NCBI RefSeq assembly: GCF_002751875.1
Contig: NZ_NMZM01000009.1
Span: forward strand, 62,001-126,000
Source: Oceaniglobus indicus
GTDB taxonomy: Bacteria > Pseudomonadota > Alphaproteobacteria > Rhodobacterales > Rhodobacteraceae
Length of the DNA stretch: 64,000 bases
Direction: 5' to 3'
The notes under the pieces: model-generated
Database searches by the model: none
What the model was told of the DNA's origin: nothing
Seen by the model: only the letters and a program-made list of their open reading frames with translations
In this document: positions 55,751 to 64,000 of the stretch, one piece after another
How positions within the stretch are numbered: position 1 is the first letter of the stretch
Layout: the number at the start of each line of letters is the position of its first letter
Made by a program: the position numbers and the translations under genes

Positions 55751-55886
55751 CCTGCGTGCGGGGGCGGCGCGCGGGCCGCGTTTGACGGCGGCCGGATGCG
55801 GCGATGGGATACCGGGTGAAATCGGTGGTTCTCAAACCGGCAAAACGGTGCTTAACTCTGCGCAAAGATACCCAGGGAGGACATTC

Positions 55887-56369
55887 ATGACCAAGGTTTC
55901 CATGCGGGTGAACGGCAAGGCCGTCACCGCAGAGGTGGAGGGGCGCACCCTTCTGGTCGAGGCGCTGCGCGGACCGCTGGGGCTGACCGGCACCCATGTC
56001 GGCTGCGACACCAGCCAGTGTGGCGCCTGCGTAGTGCATGTGGACGGCAAGGCGGTCAAGGCCTGCACCATGTTTGCCGCCGAGGCCGAGGGCGCCGAGG
56101 TCACCACGATCGAAGGAATGGCCAACGCCGACGGATCGCTGGGCGTCATCCAGCAGGCGTTTCAGGACCACCACGGTCTGCAATGCGGGTTCTGCACGCC
56201 CGGCATGGTGATGAGCGCCGCCGCCCTGCTGAAGGACAACCCGAAGCCGAGCGAGGCCGAGATCCGCCATTACCTGGAAGGCAACATCTGCCGCTGCACG
56301 GGGTATCACAACATCGTCAAGGCGATCCAGGCCGCGTCGGGCCAGGATGTGGCGATCGCCGCCGAGTGA
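55887..56369 (+). CDS. coxS: CO dehydrogenase-type small [2Fe-2S] subunit
   Basis: Iron-sulphur subunit of a xanthine dehydrogenase-family molybdenum hydroxylase. The 160-residue protein binds two [2Fe-2S] clusters: the ferredoxin-type site with Cys40, Cys45, Cys48 and Cys60 ([10 protein letters not shown]), and the helical-domain site with Cys100, Cys103, Cys135 and Cys137 (QCGFCTPG and ICRCTGY). CAGGGAGG precedes the ATG. It is first in the order S-L-M, the arrangement of form II CODH operons. Partners are the next two genes. Confidence 0.93.
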
Positions 56370-56396
56370 GGCGCGCGGCGCCGGCGCTGGCGCCAT

Positions 56397-56422
56397 GAGT
56401 ATTTGAAGCAAGAAAAAGCCGG
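56397..56422 (+). repeat. Dispersed GAGTATTT element, copy G
   Basis: GAGTATTT, GAA, then GCAAGAAAAAGCC, 28 bases after the coxS stop, preceded by a GGCGCC-GGCGCT-GGCGCC hairpin. It lies inside the cox operon, so any termination must be partial. Confidence 0.85.
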
Positions 56423-56483
56423 GGCCGCACGACCGGTCCGGGGCGCAAGGCGGGGAGGCCCGTCTGTCTGGGAGGACAAGGAC

Positions 56484-58928
56484 ATGCCAAAGGATTCAGG
56501 CATCGGGGCCAGCCCGAAGCGGCGCGAGGACGTACGGTTTCTGACCGGCGACGGGCGTTATACCGACGACATCAACGTGGCCGGGCAGGCCTATGTGCAT
56601 TTCCTGCGCTCGGACGTCGCCCATGCGCGGATCGCGGGCATCGACACCTCGCAGGCGGAAGGGATGCCGGGCGTCGTGCGGATCTTCACCGGCGCGGATT
56701 TCGAGGCGGTGGGGGGCATTCCCTGCGGCTGGCAGATCACCGACCGCCACGGGGAAGTGATGCAGGAGCCGAAGCACCCCGTGCTGGCCCACGGCAAGGT
56801 GCGCCATGTCGGCGATCCGATCTGTGCCGTGGTGGCCGATACGCTGGCCCAGGCGCGCGACGCGGCCGAGGCGATCGTTCTGGACCTGGAGGAACTGCCC
56901 GCTGTCATCGACATGAAGGAGGCGGTGAAGGACGGCGCGACCAAGGTGCATGACGATCTGACCGGCAACCTGTGTTACGACTGGGGCTTCGTCGAGGAAA
57001 ACCGCGACGCGGTGGACGAAGCGATCAAGTCGGCGGCCCATGTCACGACGCTGGAACTGGTCAACAACCGTCTGATCGCCAACCCGATGGAGCCGCGCGT
57101 GGCGGTGGGCCAGTGGGAAAAGGGCACCGGCGATTACACGCTTTACACGACGTCGCAGAACCCCCATGTGATCCGGCTGCTGATGGGGGCCTTCGTCCTG
57201 GGCATCCCCGAGCACAAGCTGCGCGTGGTCGCACCGGATGTGGGCGGCGGCTTCGGCACCAAGATCTTCCACTACGCCGAGGAGGCGTTCTGCACCTTCG
57301 CCGCCAAGGAATGCCGTCGTCCGGTCAAGTGGACGTCGAGCCGGTCGGAGGCGTTCATGTCCGATGCGCACGGGCGCGATCATGTCACCAAGATCGAACT
57401 GGCGCTGGACGCAGAGAACAACTTTACCGCCGTGCGCACGGAAACCTATGCCAACATGGGGGCTTACCTGTCGACCTTCGCGCCGTCGGTGCCGACCTGG
57501 CTGCACGGCACGCTGATGGCGGGCAACTACCGCACGCCGCTGATTTATGTGAACGTGAAGGCGGTGTTCACCAACACGGTGCCGGTGGATGCCTATCGCG
57601 GGGCCGGGCGCCCCGAGGCGACGTTCCAGCTGGAGCGGGTGATCGACAAGGCGGCGCGCGAGCTGGGCGTCGATCCCATCGAGTTGCGCCGGCAGAATTT
57701 CATCACCGAGTTTCCCTATGCCACGCCCGTGGCAGTGGAATACGACACCGGCGATTACCACGCCACGATGGACAAGCTGATCGAGATCGCGGATGTCGCC
57801 GGCTTCGAGGCGCGCGCCGAGGAGAGCCGCGCGCGCGGCAAGCTGCGCGGTTTCGGCGTCAATTCCTATATCGAAGCCTGCGGCATCGCGCCGTCAAACC
57901 TTGTCGGGCAACTGGGTGCGCGGGCCGGTCTGTATGAATCGGCGACGGTGCGGGTCAACGCCACCGGCGGGCTGGTCGTGATGACCGGCAGCCACAGCCA
58001 CGGCCAGGGCCACGAGACGTCGTTTCCGCAGGTTGTCGCCGACATGATCGGCATCCCCGACGACATGATCGAGATCGTGCACGGCGATACCGCCAACACG
58101 CCCATGGGCATGGGCACCTATGGCTCGCGGTCCCTGGCGGTGGGCGGATCGGCCATCGTGCGCGCGACGGAAAAGATCATCGCGAAGGCCAAGAAGATCG
58201 CCGCCCACATCATGGAAGCGTCGGACCAGGACATCGAGTTGAAGGACGGCAAGTTCACCGTCGCCGGAACCGACAAGGAACTGGCCTGGGGCGACGTCAC
58301 GCTGGCGGCCTATGTGCCGCACAACTATCCGCTGGCCGAGATGGAGCCGGGGCTGGAGGAAACCGCCTTCTACGATCCCAACAACTTCACCTATCCTTCG
58401 GGCGCCTATGCCTGCGAGGTCGAGGTGGATCCCGAGACGGGCAAGGTCACCATCGAACGCTTTGCCGCCGCCGACGATTTCGGCAACGTCGTCAACCCGA
58501 TGATCGTCGAGGGGCAGGTCCACGGCGGCATCGCGCAAGGGGTCGGGCAGGCACTGCTGGAAAACTGCGCCTATGACGAGAACGGTCAGCTTATCTCGGC
58601 CAGCTATATGGATTATGCCATGCCGCGGGCGGACGATCTGCCGATGTTCACGGTCGATCATTCCTGCCAGACGCCCTGCACCCACAACCCGCTGGGCGTG
58701 AAGGGATGTGGCGAGGCGGGAGCGATCGCGTCACCGCCCACGGTGGTCAACGCGGTCTGTGACGCGCTGCAGCGCGCCGGCAAGAACGTCACCCATATCG
58801 ACATGCCACTGAGCCCGGCGCGGGTCTGGGCCGCCATGCAGGGGGCAGAGCCGACCATGGGGGCGGCGCAACCGGCCGCCGGATCGGCGGGGTCGGCCGA
58901 GGGACGCTCGCTGCACGGGCAGGGCTGA
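56484..58928 (+). CDS. coxL: Form II CO dehydrogenase-type large molybdopterin subunit
   Basis: Catalytic Mo-cofactor subunit of 814 residues. The active-site loop is AYRGAGR at 370-376, the form II signature; true form I CO dehydrogenases have AYxCSFR there. The conserved active-site glutamate is Glu744 in GCGEAGAIASPP. The N-terminal RREDVRFLTGDGRYTDDI and the cofactor-binding VGGGFGTKIF and GSHSHGQGHETSFPQV are typical. The C-terminus has a low-complexity Gly/Ala tail. The true substrate of form II enzymes is uncertain and may not be CO. The ATG at 56484 has GGGAGGA upstream. Confidence 0.92.
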   Translation: MPKDSGIGASPKRREDVRFLTGDGRYTDDINVAGQAYVHFLRSDVAHARIAGIDTSQAEGMPGVVRIFTGADFEAVGGIPCGWQITDRHGEVMQEPKHPVLAHGKVRHVGDPICAVVADTLAQARDAAEAIVLDLEELPAVIDMKEAVKDGATKVHDDLTGNLCYDWGFVEENRDAVDEAIKSAAHVTTLELVNNRLIANPMEPRVAVGQWEKGTGDYTLYTTSQNPHVIRLLMGAFVLGIPEHKLRVVAPDVGGGFGTKIFHYAEEAFCTFAAKECRRPVKWTSSRSEAFMSDAHGRDHVTKIELALDAENNFTAVRTETYANMGAYLSTFAPSVPTWLHGTLMAGNYRTPLIYVNVKAVFTNTVPVDAYRGAGRPEATFQLERVIDKAARELGVDPIELRRQNFITEFPYATPVAVEYDTGDYHATMDKLIEIADVAGFEARAEESRARGKLRGFGVNSYIEACGIAPSNLVGQLGARAGLYESATVRVNATGGLVVMTGSHSHGQGHETSFPQVVADMIGIPDDMIEIVHGDTANTPMGMGTYGSRSLAVGGSAIVRATEKIIAKAKKIAAHIMEASDQDIELKDGKFTVAGTDKELAWGDVTLAAYVPHNYPLAEMEPGLEETAFYDPNNFTYPSGAYACEVEVDPETGKVTIERFAAADDFGNVVNPMIVEGQVHGGIAQGVGQALLENCAYDENGQLISASYMDYAMPRADDLPMFTVDHSCQTPCTHNPLGVKGCGEAGAIASPPTVVNAVCDALQRAGKNVTHIDMPLSPARVWAAMQGAEPTMGAAQPAAGSAGSAEGRSLHGQG

Positions 58929-58967
58929 ACGGCGGGCGGCGGCCTTTCGGGGCTGCCGCGGGATTTC

Positions 58968-58991
58968 GAGTATTTGGATCAGTAAGAAGTC
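58968..58991 (+). repeat. Dispersed GAGTATTT element, copy H (variant form)
   Basis: GAGTATTT, GGAT, then CAGTAAGAAGTC, 40 bases after the coxL stop, following a GGCGGCC/GGCTGCC hairpin. Same variant as copy E. Confidence 0.75.
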
Positions 58992-59030
58992 AGGGCGTGG
59001 TTCCCTGTTTTCGACTGGAGGAGAGAGACG

Positions 59031-59816
59031 ATGTATGCATTCGACCTGGAACGGCCCACGACCCTTGCGGACGCCATCGCGGCGCTGAAGGGCGAGGACG
59101 CGCAGGCGCTGGGGGGCGGCCAGACCCTGATTCCGACGCTGAAACAGCGGCTGGCCATGCCCGCGAAGCTGGTCAGCCTTGCCGGGGTGGACGAGATCAA
59201 GGGAATTTGCCGCAATGATGCCGGTCGGCTTTGCGTCGGTGGCGGCACCACCCACGGCGAGATCGCGGCGCAGTCGGATTATCCGGCCCTCGCGGCCCTG
59301 GCGGGGCGGATCGGCGATCCGGCCGTGCGCAACCGTGGCACGATCGGCGGATCGGTCGCGAACAACGATCCTTCGGCCTGCTATCCGGCAGCCTGCCTTG
59401 CATCGGGCGCGACCATCGTGACCGATCGCGGCGAATACGCGGCGGATGATTTTTTCCAGGGGATGTTCACCACGTCGCTGGCCGAGGGCGAAATCGTGAC
59501 CGAGGTGCGGTTCCCGATACCGGAGGCGGCGAACTATCAGAAGTTCGCGCAGCCCGCCTCGCGGTTCCCGTTGGTCGGCGTGTTCGTGGCACGGTTTGCC
59601 GACGGCGTGCGCGTCGCCGTGACCGGTGCATCGGAAGGCGGTGTGTTCCGCTGGTCCGAGGCGGAGACGGCGCTGTCGTCGGACTTTTCGGTCGGGGCGC
59701 TGGAGGGGCTGAGCGCGTCGGCCGAGGGTCTGATCACCGACCTGCACGGATCAGCCGACTATCGGGCGCATCTGATCAAGGTGCTGACCGGCCGCGCGGT
59801 GACCGCGGCCGCGTAA
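59031..59816 (+). CDS. coxM: CO dehydrogenase-type medium FAD subunit
   Basis: FAD-binding subunit of 261 residues that passes electrons from the Fe-S clusters to acceptors. It begins with MYAFDLERPTTLADAIAAL, has the FAD motifs LGGGQTLIPTLK and TIGGSVANNDPSACYPA, and a C-terminal CO-dehydrogenase flavoprotein domain. TGGAGGAG precedes the ATG. It ends the coxSLM operon and is followed by a strong terminator. Confidence 0.93.
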   Translation: MYAFDLERPTTLADAIAALKGEDAQALGGGQTLIPTLKQRLAMPAKLVSLAGVDEIKGICRNDAGRLCVGGGTTHGEIAAQSDYPALAALAGRIGDPAVRNRGTIGGSVANNDPSACYPAACLASGATIVTDRGEYAADDFFQGMFTTSLAEGEIVTEVRFPIPEAANYQKFAQPASRFPLVGVFVARFADGVRVAVTGASEGGVFRWSEAETALSSDFSVGALEGLSASAEGLITDLHGSADYRAHLIKVLTGRAVTAAA

Positions 59817-59870: not shown

Positions 59871-61910
59871 TCAACCGCGCCGGCGGCGGCGGCGTCCGCC
59901 ATCCGCGCCGCTGCCGTTGGTGTTGAAGCTGACGTCGGGCAGATCCACGATGCCGTTGAGGTGCGGAAAGGGATCGGTGGCGTGGGGCAGGGCGTTGGCG
60001 TTGACGAAATGCTCCTGAAACCGGGGGGCAATGGCGGTCTCCACCTTGGTGATCCGGTGCACGGTTGCTTCGATGTCGCGCCGCGCCGCACGGTTCAGCA
60101 GGGCGATCCGGGCCCCGGTTCCCGCGGCGTTGCCCGCGCTGCGCACGTGATCCAAGGGGGCATCGGGGATCATGCCCAGAACCATGGCGTGTTTCGCCGA
60201 GATATGCGCCCCGAACGCCCCGGCCAGAACGACGCGATCGACGGTGTCGGTGCCGAACTCGTCCATCAGCAGGCGCGCACCGGCGTAAAGCGCTGACTTG
60301 GCCAGCTGGATCGCCCGGATGTCGCCCTGCGTCACGGTGATCCGGGGGCCGTCGGTCGCGCTGGCGTCGTGGATCAGATACGAATGGGTGCGGCCCTCGG
60401 GGATCAGCCGGTCGGTTCCGGTTTGTGCCGCCGAGCCGATCAGGCCGTTGGGGTCGACAAGACCGGCCATCCGCATCTCGGCCACCGCCTCGATGATGCC
60501 GGATCCGCAGATGCCGGTGATCCCGGTGGATTTCGTCGCCTCGTCAAAACCGGCTTCGTCGGACCACAACGCGCACCCGATGACGCGGAAGCGGGGTTCC
60601 CTGGTGATCGGGTCGATCCGGATCTTTTCGATCGCGCCCGGCGCGGCGCGCTGGCCTGACGAGATCTGCGCGCCTTCGAAGGCGGGGCCGGTGGGCGATG
60701 AACAGGCCAGCACGCGGGTCGTGTCACCCAGCAGGATCTCGGCGTTGGTGCCGACGTCCACGATCAGGGTCAGGTCGGTCTGGCGGCCCGGTTCTTCGGA
60801 CAGGGCGACAGCGGCGCAATCGGCGCCGACGTGGCCCGCGATACAGGGCAGCAGATAGAGCTTGGCCGCCGGGTTCAGCCCCGACAGGTCAAGATCGCGC
60901 GCGTCCAGATCCATGGCGTCCGACGTCGCCAGCGCGAAGGGCGCCTGGCCCAGTTCGACCGGATCCAGCCCCAGCAGCAGATGGTGCATCACCGGGTTGC
61001 AGACGATCACCGCCTCGATGATGGCTTCGGCCGCGACGCCGGATTGTGCGGCGATTTCAAGTGCCAGATCGTTCATCGCCTCGCGCACGACACGCGTCAT
61101 CTCGGCCTCGCCACCGGGGTTCATCATGACATAGCTGACCCGGCTCATCAGGTCTTCGCCGAAACGGATCTGCGGGTTCATGACGCCGGCCGATGCCTTC
61201 ACCTCGCCGGTGGACAGGTCGCACAGGTGCGCCGCGATGGTGGTCGATCCGAGGTCGATGGCAAGGCCGTACAGGCCCCCCTCGTAAAGGCCGGGCCAGA
61301 GATCGACGATCGTGGGGGCGCGGTCGGTGTGGGGTTGGTTCAACGCCACCGTCACCTGCCACTTTCCCGCGCGCAGGACCGGTTGCAGCTTGCGCAGGAC
61401 CGAAAGCGGGGCAGAAACCGGACCGATGTTCCATTGCTCTTTCAAGGCCAGCGACACCCGTTCCAGATCACCCGAGGGTTCGTGCATGTCGGGTTCCGCC
61501 ACCTCGATGAAATAGAGGCGGGTGGCCGGGTCCAGTTCGATGTCGCGCAGGGTTGCTTCCTTGCGCACCACCTGGGCGTGCACCTGGCTTTCGCGCGGCA
61601 CGTCGATCACCACGTCGCCCTGCACCTTGGCCTGGCATCCCAGACGGCGACCCTCCTTCAGGCCGCGTTTGGATTTATACCGCTCTTCGACCGCGTTCCA
61701 GTCGGACAGGGCGTCTTGCTGAACGGTGACGCCGTGTTTCGAAAAGCTGCCATAACCCGGCGACACCTGGCATTTCGAGCAGATGCCGCGCCCGCCGCAG
61801 ACGGAATCCAGATCAACGCCCAGTTGGCGCGCGGCGGTCAGGATGGGCGTGCCGGCCGGAAAGCGGCCGCGTTTGCCCGAGGGGGTGAAGATGACGAGAG
61901 GATCGGTCAT
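59871..61910 (-). CDS. ASKHA-domain [2Fe-2S] protein, reductive activator of corrinoid enzymes
   Basis: Reactivates corrinoid proteins whose cobalt has oxidised, using ATP and an Fe-S electron path. The 679-residue protein has a ferredoxin-like N-terminus with Cys38, Cys44, Cys47 and Cys92, a linker domain, then the ASKHA ATPase region with YGLAIDLGSTTIAAHLCDL, LIVDVGTNAEILLG and VVLAGAFGAHIS. It ends in GGRRRRRRG, an Arg-rich tail also found on the neighbouring methyltransferase. The ATG at 61910 is chosen as the start of the conserved region. RamA/RACo-type function is inferred from family and context. Confidence 0.88.
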   Translation of the reverse strand: MTDPLVIFTPSGKRGRFPAGTPILTAARQLGVDLDSVCGGRGICSKCQVSPGYGSFSKHGVTVQQDALSDWNAVEERYKSKRGLKEGRRLGCQAKVQGDVVIDVPRESQVHAQVVRKEATLRDIELDPATRLYFIEVAEPDMHEPSGDLERVSLALKEQWNIGPVSAPLSVLRKLQPVLRAGKWQVTVALNQPHTDRAPTIVDLWPGLYEGGLYGLAIDLGSTTIAAHLCDLSTGEVKASAGVMNPQIRFGEDLMSRVSYVMMNPGGEAEMTRVVREAMNDLALEIAAQSGVAAEAIIEAVIVCNPVMHHLLLGLDPVELGQAPFALATSDAMDLDARDLDLSGLNPAAKLYLLPCIAGHVGADCAAVALSEEPGRQTDLTLIVDVGTNAEILLGDTTRVLACSSPTGPAFEGAQISSGQRAAPGAIEKIRIDPITREPRFRVIGCALWSDEAGFDEATKSTGITGICGSGIIEAVAEMRMAGLVDPNGLIGSAAQTGTDRLIPEGRTHSYLIHDASATDGPRITVTQGDIRAIQLAKSALYAGARLLMDEFGTDTVDRVVLAGAFGAHISAKHAMVLGMIPDAPLDHVRSAGNAAGTGARIALLNRAARRDIEATVHRITKVETAIAPRFQEHFVNANALPHATDPFPHLNGIVDLPDVSFNTNGSGADGGRRRRRRG

Positions 61911-62019
61911 GGCGCGCTCCGGAGGGCGAAAAACTTCAGGTGGTTCGGTCGTGGCGCGGGGTGCTGCGCGGGGGAAGGGCGCGCGCGTGGCGCGGCGCGG
62001 CGCCGGCCCGCGTGCGCGA

Positions 62020-63000
62020 TCAGGCGCGCCGGCGGCGGCGTCCGCCCCGGCCGGCGCCCGAATCCTGTGACGCCTGCGATGCCTGGGCGAAGGTCGCGCC
62101 ACCCTCGACCGCGTCCATGATGCGCGAGAACGCGATCCACTGTGACCCGTTGGCGTCGTGGTTCATCAGGAAGTTGGCGGCGCGGATCGCCTCCATCTCG
62201 GCGACGCGCATCGGGTTCATGATGGCCGAGGTCATGCCGGCGGTGATCGCCATGGGCAGGAACGCGGCGTTGATGCCGTGGCGGTGGGGCAGGCCGAAGC
62301 TGATGTTCGACGCGCCGCAGGTGGTGTTGACGCCCAGTTCATCGCGCAGGCGACGGATCAGCGCAAAGACCTGCTGGCCGGCGGTGGCCATGGCGCCGAT
62401 CGGCATGACCAGCGGATCGACGACGATGTCATGGGCCGGGATGCCGTGATCGGCCGCGCGTTCGACGATCTTCTTGGCCACGGCGAAGCGGACTTCGGGA
62501 TCTTCGGAAATGCCGGTGTCATCATTGCTGATCGCCACCACCGGCACGTTGTATTTCTTGACCAGCGGCAGGACCAGTTCCAGCCGTTCCTCTTCGCCGG
62601 TGACCGAGTTCAGAAGCGGCCGGCCCTCGGCGGCCTCGAGACCGTTCTGCAACGCGCCGGGGACCGAGGAATCGATGCACAGCGGCACGTCGGTGATGGC
62701 CTGGATCCGGGTGATCAGATCGCGCATCAGCGGGGGTTCGACAAAGTTGTTGTCGGCGTAACGCGGGTCTTCGGCCATCTTGTTGGTGAACACCGCGCCC
62801 GAGTTGACGTCCAGCACCATCGCCCCGCAGGCCACCTGTTCCAGCGCGTCGCGTTCGATGGTCGAGAAATCACCCAGCTCGAGTTCGGCCGACAGCTTCT
62901 TGCGCCCGGTGGGGTTGATGCGTTCGCCGATCACGCAGAACGGTTCGTCAAAGCCGATGACGACGGTTTTCGTTTTGGATTCGATTACGGTGCGGGTCAT
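62020..63000 (-). CDS. Methyltetrahydrofolate:corrinoid methyltransferase
   Basis: Pterin-binding TIM-barrel enzyme that moves methyl groups between a corrinoid protein and tetrahydrofolate. The 326-residue protein has VIGERINPTGRKKL, MVLDVNSGAVF, CIDSSVPGALQNGL, LNSVTGEEERLE, VVAISNDDTGIS and the C-terminal GASNISFGLPHRHGINAAFL, matching the MetH-type pterin domain. A low-complexity end leads to RGGRRRRRA. The ATG at 63000 has GGAAGGA upstream and overlaps the HAD gene stop (ATGA). A role in demethylation of betaine-like compounds is inferred. Confidence 0.9.
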   Translation of the reverse strand: MTRTVIESKTKTVVIGFDEPFCVIGERINPTGRKKLSAELELGDFSTIERDALEQVACGAMVLDVNSGAVFTNKMAEDPRYADNNFVEPPLMRDLITRIQAITDVPLCIDSSVPGALQNGLEAAEGRPLLNSVTGEEERLELVLPLVKKYNVPVVAISNDDTGISEDPEVRFAVAKKIVERAADHGIPAHDIVVDPLVMPIGAMATAGQQVFALIRRLRDELGVNTTCGASNISFGLPHRHGINAAFLPMAITAGMTSAIMNPMRVAEMEAIRAANFLMNHDANGSQWIAFSRIMDAVEGGATFAQASQASQDSGAGRGGRRRRRA

Positions 63001-63653
63001 GGATGGTGTCCTTCCAGGCGTCTGAGGTGATCCCAGAGCGCGGTGTCGTTGAAATCGTCGATGCAGGCGGCGGCGCCGGCGTCGGCCAGGGTCGCGCCGG
63101 GCAGGCTGGATCGGATGCCATAGGTGAACAGGCCCGCGCCAACGGCGGCGCGGATGCCCGAAGGTGAATCCTCGAACGCCAGTGATTTGGCGGGATCTGC
63201 ACCCAGTTGCGCCAGAGCGGCAAGATAGGGCGCCGGATCGGGTTTTCCGGCCGAGCATTCGCCACCGATGATGACGGTGGAAAAGCGGTCGCCCAGGCCG
63301 ATCGCGCCCAGCATGGCGTCGGCGTTGGCGCGCGGCGCGTTGGTGACGACGGCCACCGGCCAACCGCGGGCCGCCGCGTGATCCAGCAGGGCGACGGCAC
63401 CGGGGGTCGCGGGCACGCTGGCGCCCAGCCGGTCGCGAAACATCGCTTCCTTCTGATCGGACAGGGCCTGTGCATCTTCGTCGGGCAACAGATCGCCGAA
63501 GATGGCCGAGTTGTGCCGCCCGTGCAGGTGCGACAGGTAATAGGCCTCGTCGATGATCCGGCCATGGTCGGCCAGCAGTTCGGCAAAGACCTGCGCGTGC
63601 AGCGGATCGGAATGAATGAGCGTTCCGTCGAGATCGAAAAGAAGGGCTGGCAC
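62997..63653 (-). CDS. HAD-superfamily phosphatase (phosphoglycolate phosphatase-like)
   Basis: A 218-residue haloacid dehalogenase hydrolase with the nucleophile motif FDLDGTLIHSD near 6-16, VVTNAPR (motif II), GKPDPAPYL with the motif III lysine and FEDSPSGIRAA (motif IV). Substrate unknown. The GTG at 63653 lies five bases after the stop of the MTHFR-like gene, and the end overlaps the methyltransferase by four bases, so all are translationally linked. It may clear a side product of one-carbon metabolism. Confidence 0.85.
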   Translation of the reverse strand: MPALLFDLDGTLIHSDPLHAQVFAELLADHGRIIDEAYYLSHLHGRHNSAIFGDLLPDEDAQALSDQKEAMFRDRLGASVPATPGAVALLDHAAARGWPVAVVTNAPRANADAMLGAIGLGDRFSTVIIGGECSAGKPDPAPYLAALAQLGADPAKSLAFEDSPSGIRAAVGAGLFTYGIRSSLPGATLADAGAAACIDDFNDTALWDHLRRLEGHHP

Positions 63654-63658
63654 GTCGT

Positions 63659-64000
63659 TCAGCCCGCCGGTTTGACGGCATCGCCGCCCTGTTGCAGCGC
63701 CCATTCCGCGCTGGCCTTGATCCCGCCCAGGGGGAAGATGTGCACCTGCCGGATATTGGAGGCGGGATGGGCCGCCTTGTGCGCCGCCAGTTCGGCGACC
63801 ACGTCGGTCGGCTCATAGGGCAGCAGCAGCCGGGTCACATCCATCGCGCGCTTTTGTAACACGCGCAGCGACGGGCCGACACCGCAGGCGATGGCAAAGC
63901 GGATCAGCGTTTGCAGCTTTGCGGGACCGGCGATGCCGATGTGGATCGGCAGGTCGATGCCGTTCGCCTTCAGGGCGTCGGCCCAGGCGATCACCGGCGC
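63659..64000 (-). CDS. Methylenetetrahydrofolate reductase-like protein, 3' part
   Basis: C-terminal part of a gene that extends beyond the window. The visible 113 residues include IHIGIAGPAKLQTLIRFAIACGVGPS and IRQVHIFPLGGIKASAEWAL, matching the C-terminal region of MetF-type methylenetetrahydrofolate reductases found near corrinoid methyltransferase genes in Rhodobacteraceae. This fits a pathway that oxidises methyl groups via tetrahydrofolate. The call rests on this short segment and context. Confidence 0.65.
   Translation of the reverse strand, partial: APVIAWADALKANGIDLPIHIGIAGPAKLQTLIRFAIACGVGPSLRVLQKRAMDVTRLLLPYEPTDVVAELAAHKAAHPASNIRQVHIFPLGGIKASAEWALQQGGDAVKPAG

Follow-up and report, generated by a model that had tools for sequence, protein, structure and literature searches.

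Why should two unrelated enzymes, encoded side by side, end in nearly the same string of arginines? The question is raised by a 64,000-nucleotide stretch of the Oceaniglobus indicus genome (Rhodobacteraceae; contig NZ_NMZM01000009.1, positions 62,001 to 126,000), here called the window, in which the genes for RamA, a corrinoid reductive activase, and MtgD, a corrinoid methyltransferase, lie on the same strand with 109 nucleotides between them. We show that the arginine-rich C-terminal tails of these proteins are real, conserved, and rare elsewhere, and we propose, with moderate confidence, that they act as flexible, arginine-specific electrostatic docking tags, which would bring each enzyme to MtgC, the acidic hub of a split cobalamin methyltransferase. 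The two genes and their tails are located as follows.

59871..61910, minus strand: RACo/RamA-type corrinoid reductive activase (RamA), 679 residues; Pfam PF14574, PF17651, PF17650 and PF00111 above their cut-offs

59874..59900, minus strand: arginine-rich C-terminal tail GGRRRRRRG of the activase, with a glycine-rich linker before it; R6 at 59877-59894, GG at 59895-59900

62020..63000, minus strand: methyltetrahydrofolate:corrinoid methyltransferase MtgD, pterin-binding module of split methionine synthase, 326 residues from the ATG; NF005719/PRK07535 and Pterin_bind

62023..62052, minus strand: arginine/glycine-rich C-terminal tail GRGGRRRRRA of MtgD; R5 at 62026-62040, GG at 62041-62046

RamA combines a 2Fe-2S ferredoxin domain with RACo linker, middle, and ASKHA C-terminal domains, all four Pfam models passing, and matches to it occur in 188 of 198 genomes across the family. 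It scores 385 bits against NCBIfam AcsV (NF040756), below the curated cut-off of 800, and is a relative of AcsV rather than AcsV itself. MtgD, at 400.8 bits against a cut-off of 259, is a member of NF005719/PRK07535. An earlier note on this DNA had described matching arginine-rich tails on two adjacent but unrelated corrinoid-pathway proteins, and both parts of that description are confirmed: the ends read GGRRRRRRG in RamA and GGRRRRRA in MtgD (whose C-terminal end is ...SGAGRGGRRRRRA), and the two proteins have no Pfam family in common. A run of at least four arginines within the last 15 residues was found in a single one of 363 open reading frames (ORFs) of the same genome, namely the window RamA; these ORFs were picked mechanically, 315 from 400 kb of contig 11 and 48 from the window, and MtgD was absent from the picks.

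Judged from their sequences, the window proteins belong to the split methionine synthase/glycine-betaine demethylase (MtgBCDE with RamA and DUF1638) of Phaeobacter and Ruegeria. The other parts of this system, a separate corrinoid protein, a homocysteine module, DUF1638, and an MttB-family protein, are all present in the same genome, with B12-binding and cap domains, S-methyl_trans, DUF1638 and MTTB each above the Pfam cut-off.

Contig 26, about 6.7-12.8 kb: DUF1638, MtgC (B12-binding and cap domains) and MtgE (homocysteine S-methyltransferase domain); Pfam

Contig 11, near 338-340 kb: MtgB, one MttB-family gene; Pfam

Here MtgE ends in TRERRRRRG, MtgB starts with MGETEAPRRARGGGGAARRAERT, and MtgC starts with MSDEEIILSDLSDEELVLQMHDDLYDGMKDEI. 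The split methionine synthase of Phaeobacter inhibens is built from components with the same domains, PGA1_c15200 and PGA1_c16040 being the counterparts, in domain content, of the window RamA and MtgD; there, a RamA-like protein and DUF1638 have been proposed to reactivate cobalamin, the evidence that the RamA-like protein carries out the ATP-dependent reduction of Co(II) corrinoid, as expected of a RACo/RamA-type activase, being genetic only in the parts of that paper covered (PMC5764234). The MtgBCD/MtgE system of Ruegeria pomeroyi is likewise the same; metF2 stands beside mtgD in that organism, and MtgC and MtgD are required there for methionine and for glycine betaine use; mtg genes are expressed widely in the ocean (PMC12478193). 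The assignment of both window proteins to a demethylation pathway in the earlier note accordingly holds for glycine betaine but is too narrow, since the pathway makes methionine too (PMC12478193).

Among orthologues, the tails are the rule. Our survey covered alphaproteobacterial ORFs that passed identity and length gates, with duplicates (identical last 150 residues) removed, and called a tail when at least 4 arginines, or 5 in a stricter variant, fell within a 9-residue stretch of the last 25 residues; the background comprised 362 ORFs of a single genome, taken from the window and from 400 kb of contig 11. At the 4-arginine threshold, tails are found in 105 of 108 RamA, 70 of 71 MtgD, and 93 of 94 MtgE proteins, against 25 of 362 background ORFs, and at 5 arginines in 103/108, 62/71, and 92/94, against 6/362, although these orthologues are related to each other and the counts do not represent independent events. 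The arginine-density criterion was adopted after the results of an earlier criterion had been seen and was hence chosen on the data. That earlier charge criterion (at least 6 arginines or lysines and a net charge of +3 in the last 25 residues; RamA 71/87, MtgD 38/53, MtgE 66/93, background 24/362) was replaced because it missed many ends plainly bearing a tail. We give totals because the split between the family and other Alphaproteobacteria is approximate, some records being titled only 'Alphaproteobacteria bacterium' and one 'Enemella evansiae'. The three RamA proteins that fail are L183, with RRRGLRRRG and then extra sequence, L404, with RRKSNRRGTGR and then more sequence, and L403, with no such stretch. 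Absence of the tails from close orthologues, which the earlier note had named as evidence against its reading, is not what we found: they are present across the family and the class.

The composition of the tails is also constrained. In the family group, the RamA linkers differ in 46 of 46 cases, ranging from 7 to 14 residues and consisting of about half glycine, whereas the basic run stays at 4-7. The last 12 residues of 47 family-group RamA proteins contain arginine and lysine in a ratio of 267:4, compared with 10290:3482 in background proteins, a strong preference that argues for specific chemistry. Other C-termini of the system mostly lack a tail at the 4-arginine threshold (MtgB 2/74, MtgC 2/157, DUF1638 6/148, and the presumed MetF2, our in-pathway control, 0/9).

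MtgB is tagged at its other end. Using a criterion of 4 arginines in 12 residues, and after 4 MtgB ORFs running off the locus edge had been dropped and 6 of 74 had been found to have no readable start, 64 of the 68 readable MtgB N-termini pass, and 41 do so at 5 arginines; among background ORFs, 63 of 362 pass at 4 and 19 at 5. The same test is passed by 1/88 RamA, 0/67 MtgD, 0/156 MtgC, 0/91 MtgE, and 0/7 presumed MetF2 proteins. By eye, the MtgB stretches fall into three groups, RRxRGGGGAARRA-like, RRKRGGGRAGNSARRG-like, and AGRxARxAERSR-like. DUF1638 has an arginine-rich N-terminus in 13 of 121 proteins with a readable ATG; examples are L082, L095, L110, L330, and L334, as well as L205, L213, and L217, whose starts are unsettled, and those of L082, L095, and L334 resemble the MtgB stretches, suggesting that DUF1638 may dock in some lineages only. 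The statement in the earlier note that other pathway members carry arginine-rich ends is therefore borne out for the MtgE C-terminus and the MtgB N-terminus, but not for the presumed MetF2, and for only a minority of DUF1638 proteins.

If the tails are docking tags, as the earlier note suggested, a candidate partner is the acidic N-terminus of MtgC, encoded outside the window; the binding itself we infer from sequence. The net charge of the first 36 residues is -9 or lower in 157 of 157 MtgC proteins (median -14) and in 1 of 362 background ORFs, and the N-terminal consensus is MADxDEIILSELxDEELVQQMHDDLYDGLKEEI. In the model of a close MtgC orthologue (Palleronia, L262), residues 1-4 have a predicted local distance difference test score (pLDDT) below 50 and helices occupy residues 14-27 and 30-42, so that the acidity would lie partly on a short free end and partly on the surface of the first cap helices. 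An MtgC orthologue is present in 45 of the 49 RamA-bearing genomes of the class that were searched. As a separate observation, an MtgC that shares 82% identity with the query comes from a record titled Enemella evansiae (L339), the name of an actinobacterium, which could reflect contamination or misnaming.

Relatives of these enzymes in other corrinoid systems provide the controls. Distant RamA relatives have a tail in 0 of 16 cases (16 fetched of 18 listed over the ASKHA part), 15 of them standing beside a corrinoid protein of their own, and MtgD-like neighbours in other corrinoid systems have a tail in 0 of 6. The 16 corrinoid proteins beside distant RamA relatives or MttB paralogues have net charges of 0 to -8, with doubtful starts in L349 and L358 and no start in L344. 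Conversely, in a genome from another class of the same phylum (G557, locus L359), RamA, MtgD, MtgB, and MtgC occur together and all keep their charged ends; DUF1638 is untailed there, and MtgE is not in that locus. The tails are, in sum, present, conserved, and restricted to the MtgBCDE/RamA system; paralogues of RamA and MtgD lack them, as does the presumed MetF2. Two further locus types came to light. Loci L350-L356 are a distinct alphaproteobacterial type without arginine tails: each combines a relative of RamA with a corrinoid protein starting MAELSDI- or MANLSDI-like, and most also have an MtgD-like gene. In L228/L357 (G284) and L229/L358 (G276), an MttB paralogue is accompanied by a corrinoid protein of its own, which shares 48-50% identity with MtgC, and the main system is also in the genome.

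Solved structures largely start or stop short of the charged ends. In the Wood-Ljungdahl pathway, RACo (PDB 3zyy, 4c1n) has the corrinoid iron-sulfur protein as its target; it shares its domain build with the window RamA, and 3zyy matches residues 4-645 of 679, but it has no counterpart of the tail or of the 34-residue glycine/arginine extension that contains it. In the RamA model, residues 651-679 have pLDDT below 50, although overall confidence is low (mean pLDDT 66, 163 residues below 50). No match among 17 solved MtgD relatives extends past residue 285 of the 327-residue query, solved corrinoid proteins match MtgC from residue 13 or later (the best, 1y80, from 22), and the match to the MtgB-type structures 2qne and 9yce starts only at residue 36-38.

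Our docking proposal can be put as follows. MtgB on the methyl-donor side, MtgD with folate, MtgE with homocysteine, and RamA for reductive reactivation would all have to reach the corrinoid of MtgC. Each of these partners would offer, at its end or its beginning, a glycine-rich linker and a dense arginine cluster, and MtgC would present an acidic free end followed directly by the first helices of its cap domain, which are acidic as well. Reversible arginine-carboxylate contacts could then keep the partners near the shared hub while being weak enough for exchange, and charge contacts would replace the covalent module linkage of MetH. Binding of the tails to the acidic N-terminus of MtgC would raise the rates of methyl transfer or reactivation. 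The question on which the tails bear is how separate parts meet on one cobalamin, and they offer a concrete handle on whether charge docking replaces covalent linkage.

Several observations weigh against this proposal. Tailed RamA proteins occur in three genomes in which no MtgC orthologue was found (G372, G422, and G268, which are 93, 70, and 82% complete); a fourth RamA-bearing genome in which none was found, G389, is 64% complete, and the same-genus relatives G468 and G319 of MtgC-less genomes do have MtgC. Complementary charges sit on MtgC and its partner enzymes, yet across the 15 loci with both proteins, the N-terminal charge of MtgC shows no significant correlation with the number of arginines in the tail of RamA or MtgD. 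Nor is MtgC set apart by acidity alone, as the corrinoid paralogue L383 reaches -9, and the cap-domain helices of other corrinoid proteins are somewhat acidic too. The MttB paralogues in L357 and L358 stand beside a different, less acidic corrinoid protein and still keep basic N-terminal stretches. The division between solved and unsolved members is not a clean one either, as shown by two RamA proteins out of the three that fail and by the MttB-family structure 4yyc, whose deposited sequence has an arginine/glycine N-terminal stretch. The presumed MetF2 control is identified by gene position, since no Pfam model matches it. Finally, MtgE of P. inhibens (Bmt) works in vitro without partners when given dimethylsulfoniopropionate or betaine (PMC12366255), so that catalysis itself has no known requirement for the tail.

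The arginine tails could instead tie the enzymes to another polyanion, such as RNA, the ribosome, polyphosphate, the nucleoid, or the inner membrane, and in this way co-localise the pathway, with the acidity of MtgC being incidental or repelling it from the same surface. Arginine/glycine-rich ends are typical of nucleic-acid or polyanion binders, the tails have the same chemistry on all tagged enzymes in the orthologue survey, and their composition alone would fit RGG or arginine-rich RNA-binding tails. Dense arginine ends nevertheless concentrate on the partners of MtgC and are seldom seen in background ORFs or at DUF1638 C-termini, and MtgC is uniformly acidic, more so than the corrinoid proteins that go with tail-less systems (0 to -8; one paralogue -9), which leads us to regard this alternative as unlikely, though the one among the rivals that deserves most weight. 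We think it more doubtful still that the whole pathway gathers in a condensate (coacervate) through multivalent arginine/acid contacts, with oligomeric MtgB and MtgC as scaffolds in place of one-to-one docking. RG-rich tails favour phase separation, and the partners do bear opposite charges. MttB, moreover, is a hexamer (PMC9842639); the tails, for their part, are short.

It is also conceivable, but very improbable, that the tails serve the solubility, folding, or proteolysis protection of each enzyme on its own: they are terminal, and that of RamA is predicted to be disordered in a low-confidence model, but such a role leaves unexplained why the partners of MtgC are tagged and same-fold relatives elsewhere are not. 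We give hardly any credence to the notion that the tails arose neutrally, from GC-rich repeats at the ends of genes. CGC/CGG repeats do encode the tails in this GC-rich genome, but tails are kept class-wide in proteins with as little as about 50% identity, and also in G259, whose loci have a GC content of 32-33% and where RamA ends ...SRTSRQNRRRRS and MtgD ...RAGRQRARRRG and the arginine codons are a mixture of AGA, AGG, CGT, and CGC, while tail-less relatives of both RamA and MtgD occur in loci of up to 70% GC. Retention at low GC, together with tail-less relatives in GC-rich loci, leads us to reject GC drift as the origin of the tails.

The near identity of the tail DNA, which the earlier note had pointed out, is also upheld, the best match between RamA and MtgD being 19 of 21 nucleotides. 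An equally good match arises in 0.1155 of 2000 simulated encodings with the codon usage of this genome, and at 68 loci with both genes the median is 14/21 for same-locus and cross-locus pairs alike. The likeness is compatible with codon usage and adds little. The window pair does top the range: among cross-locus pairs, which combine genomes that differ in codon usage, only 0.13% reach 19/21, and the match may still owe something to a local peculiarity of this genome. Gene conversion or duplication was considered as its source and set aside on the basis of the equal medians and the codon simulation, even though the window pair tops the range.

Returning to docking on MtgC, the same reasoning could be extended, more tentatively, to a charge code, in which one acidic corrinoid hub would be served by interchangeable enzymes, each with the same kind of arginine tag at one end, and new methyl-donor enzymes (MtgB paralogues) would plug in by gaining a tag. 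If true, such a code would be a non-covalent answer to MetH-type domain shuttling with the domains as separate proteins. The tags could also find use in engineering enzyme systems around a shared hub. There are partial precedents for terminal docking elements. In the MtaB-MtaC complex, an extra N-terminal part of the corrinoid protein MtaC appears to stabilise the complex with the methyltransferase (PMC9842639); it is a domain lying in a groove for one partner, whereas in MtgC a short acidic stretch would serve several. In split polyketide and peptide synthetases, short N- and C-terminal docking elements set the order in which the parts assemble (PMC9113145), whereas in our proposal charge would direct several different enzymes to a single hub. 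In the parts covered, the main text on the Ruegeria system mentions neither arginine nor a tail and does not address subunit docking (PMC12478193), and that on the P. inhibens synthase mentions no tail or docking, refers to arginine solely for its biosynthesis, and leaves assembly unstudied (PMC5764234); the main text of PMC12366255 makes no mention of arginine. Searches of the open-licence literature, supplements not included, for arginine-rich ends with corrinoid or for bacterial poly-arginine tails returned nothing relevant by title, and an earlier description elsewhere is possible.

Two further genes lie upstream of mtgD at the end of the window.

62997..63704, minus strand: HAD-family hydrolase ORF, start codon unsettled; HAD Pfam models; between the presumed metF2 and mtgD

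63659..64000, minus strand: presumed metF2, 3' part, the gene continuing beyond the window end; named solely from its position beside mtgD, as in Ruegeria

The hydrolase ends in ...WDHLRRLEGHHP and the presumed MetF2, whose product has no Pfam or NCBIfam match, in ...QQGGDAVKPAG, both without an arginine tail. An ORF resembling L-serine dehydratase, named by eye, also lies upstream; L-serine dehydratase is raised on betaine in Ruegeria (PMC12478193). On the other side, just past ramA and convergent with it, a three-gene set resembling a molybdenum hydroxylase or CO dehydrogenase (2Fe-2S, large, and FAD subunits, assigned by eye) occupies positions 55782-59816 on the plus strand.

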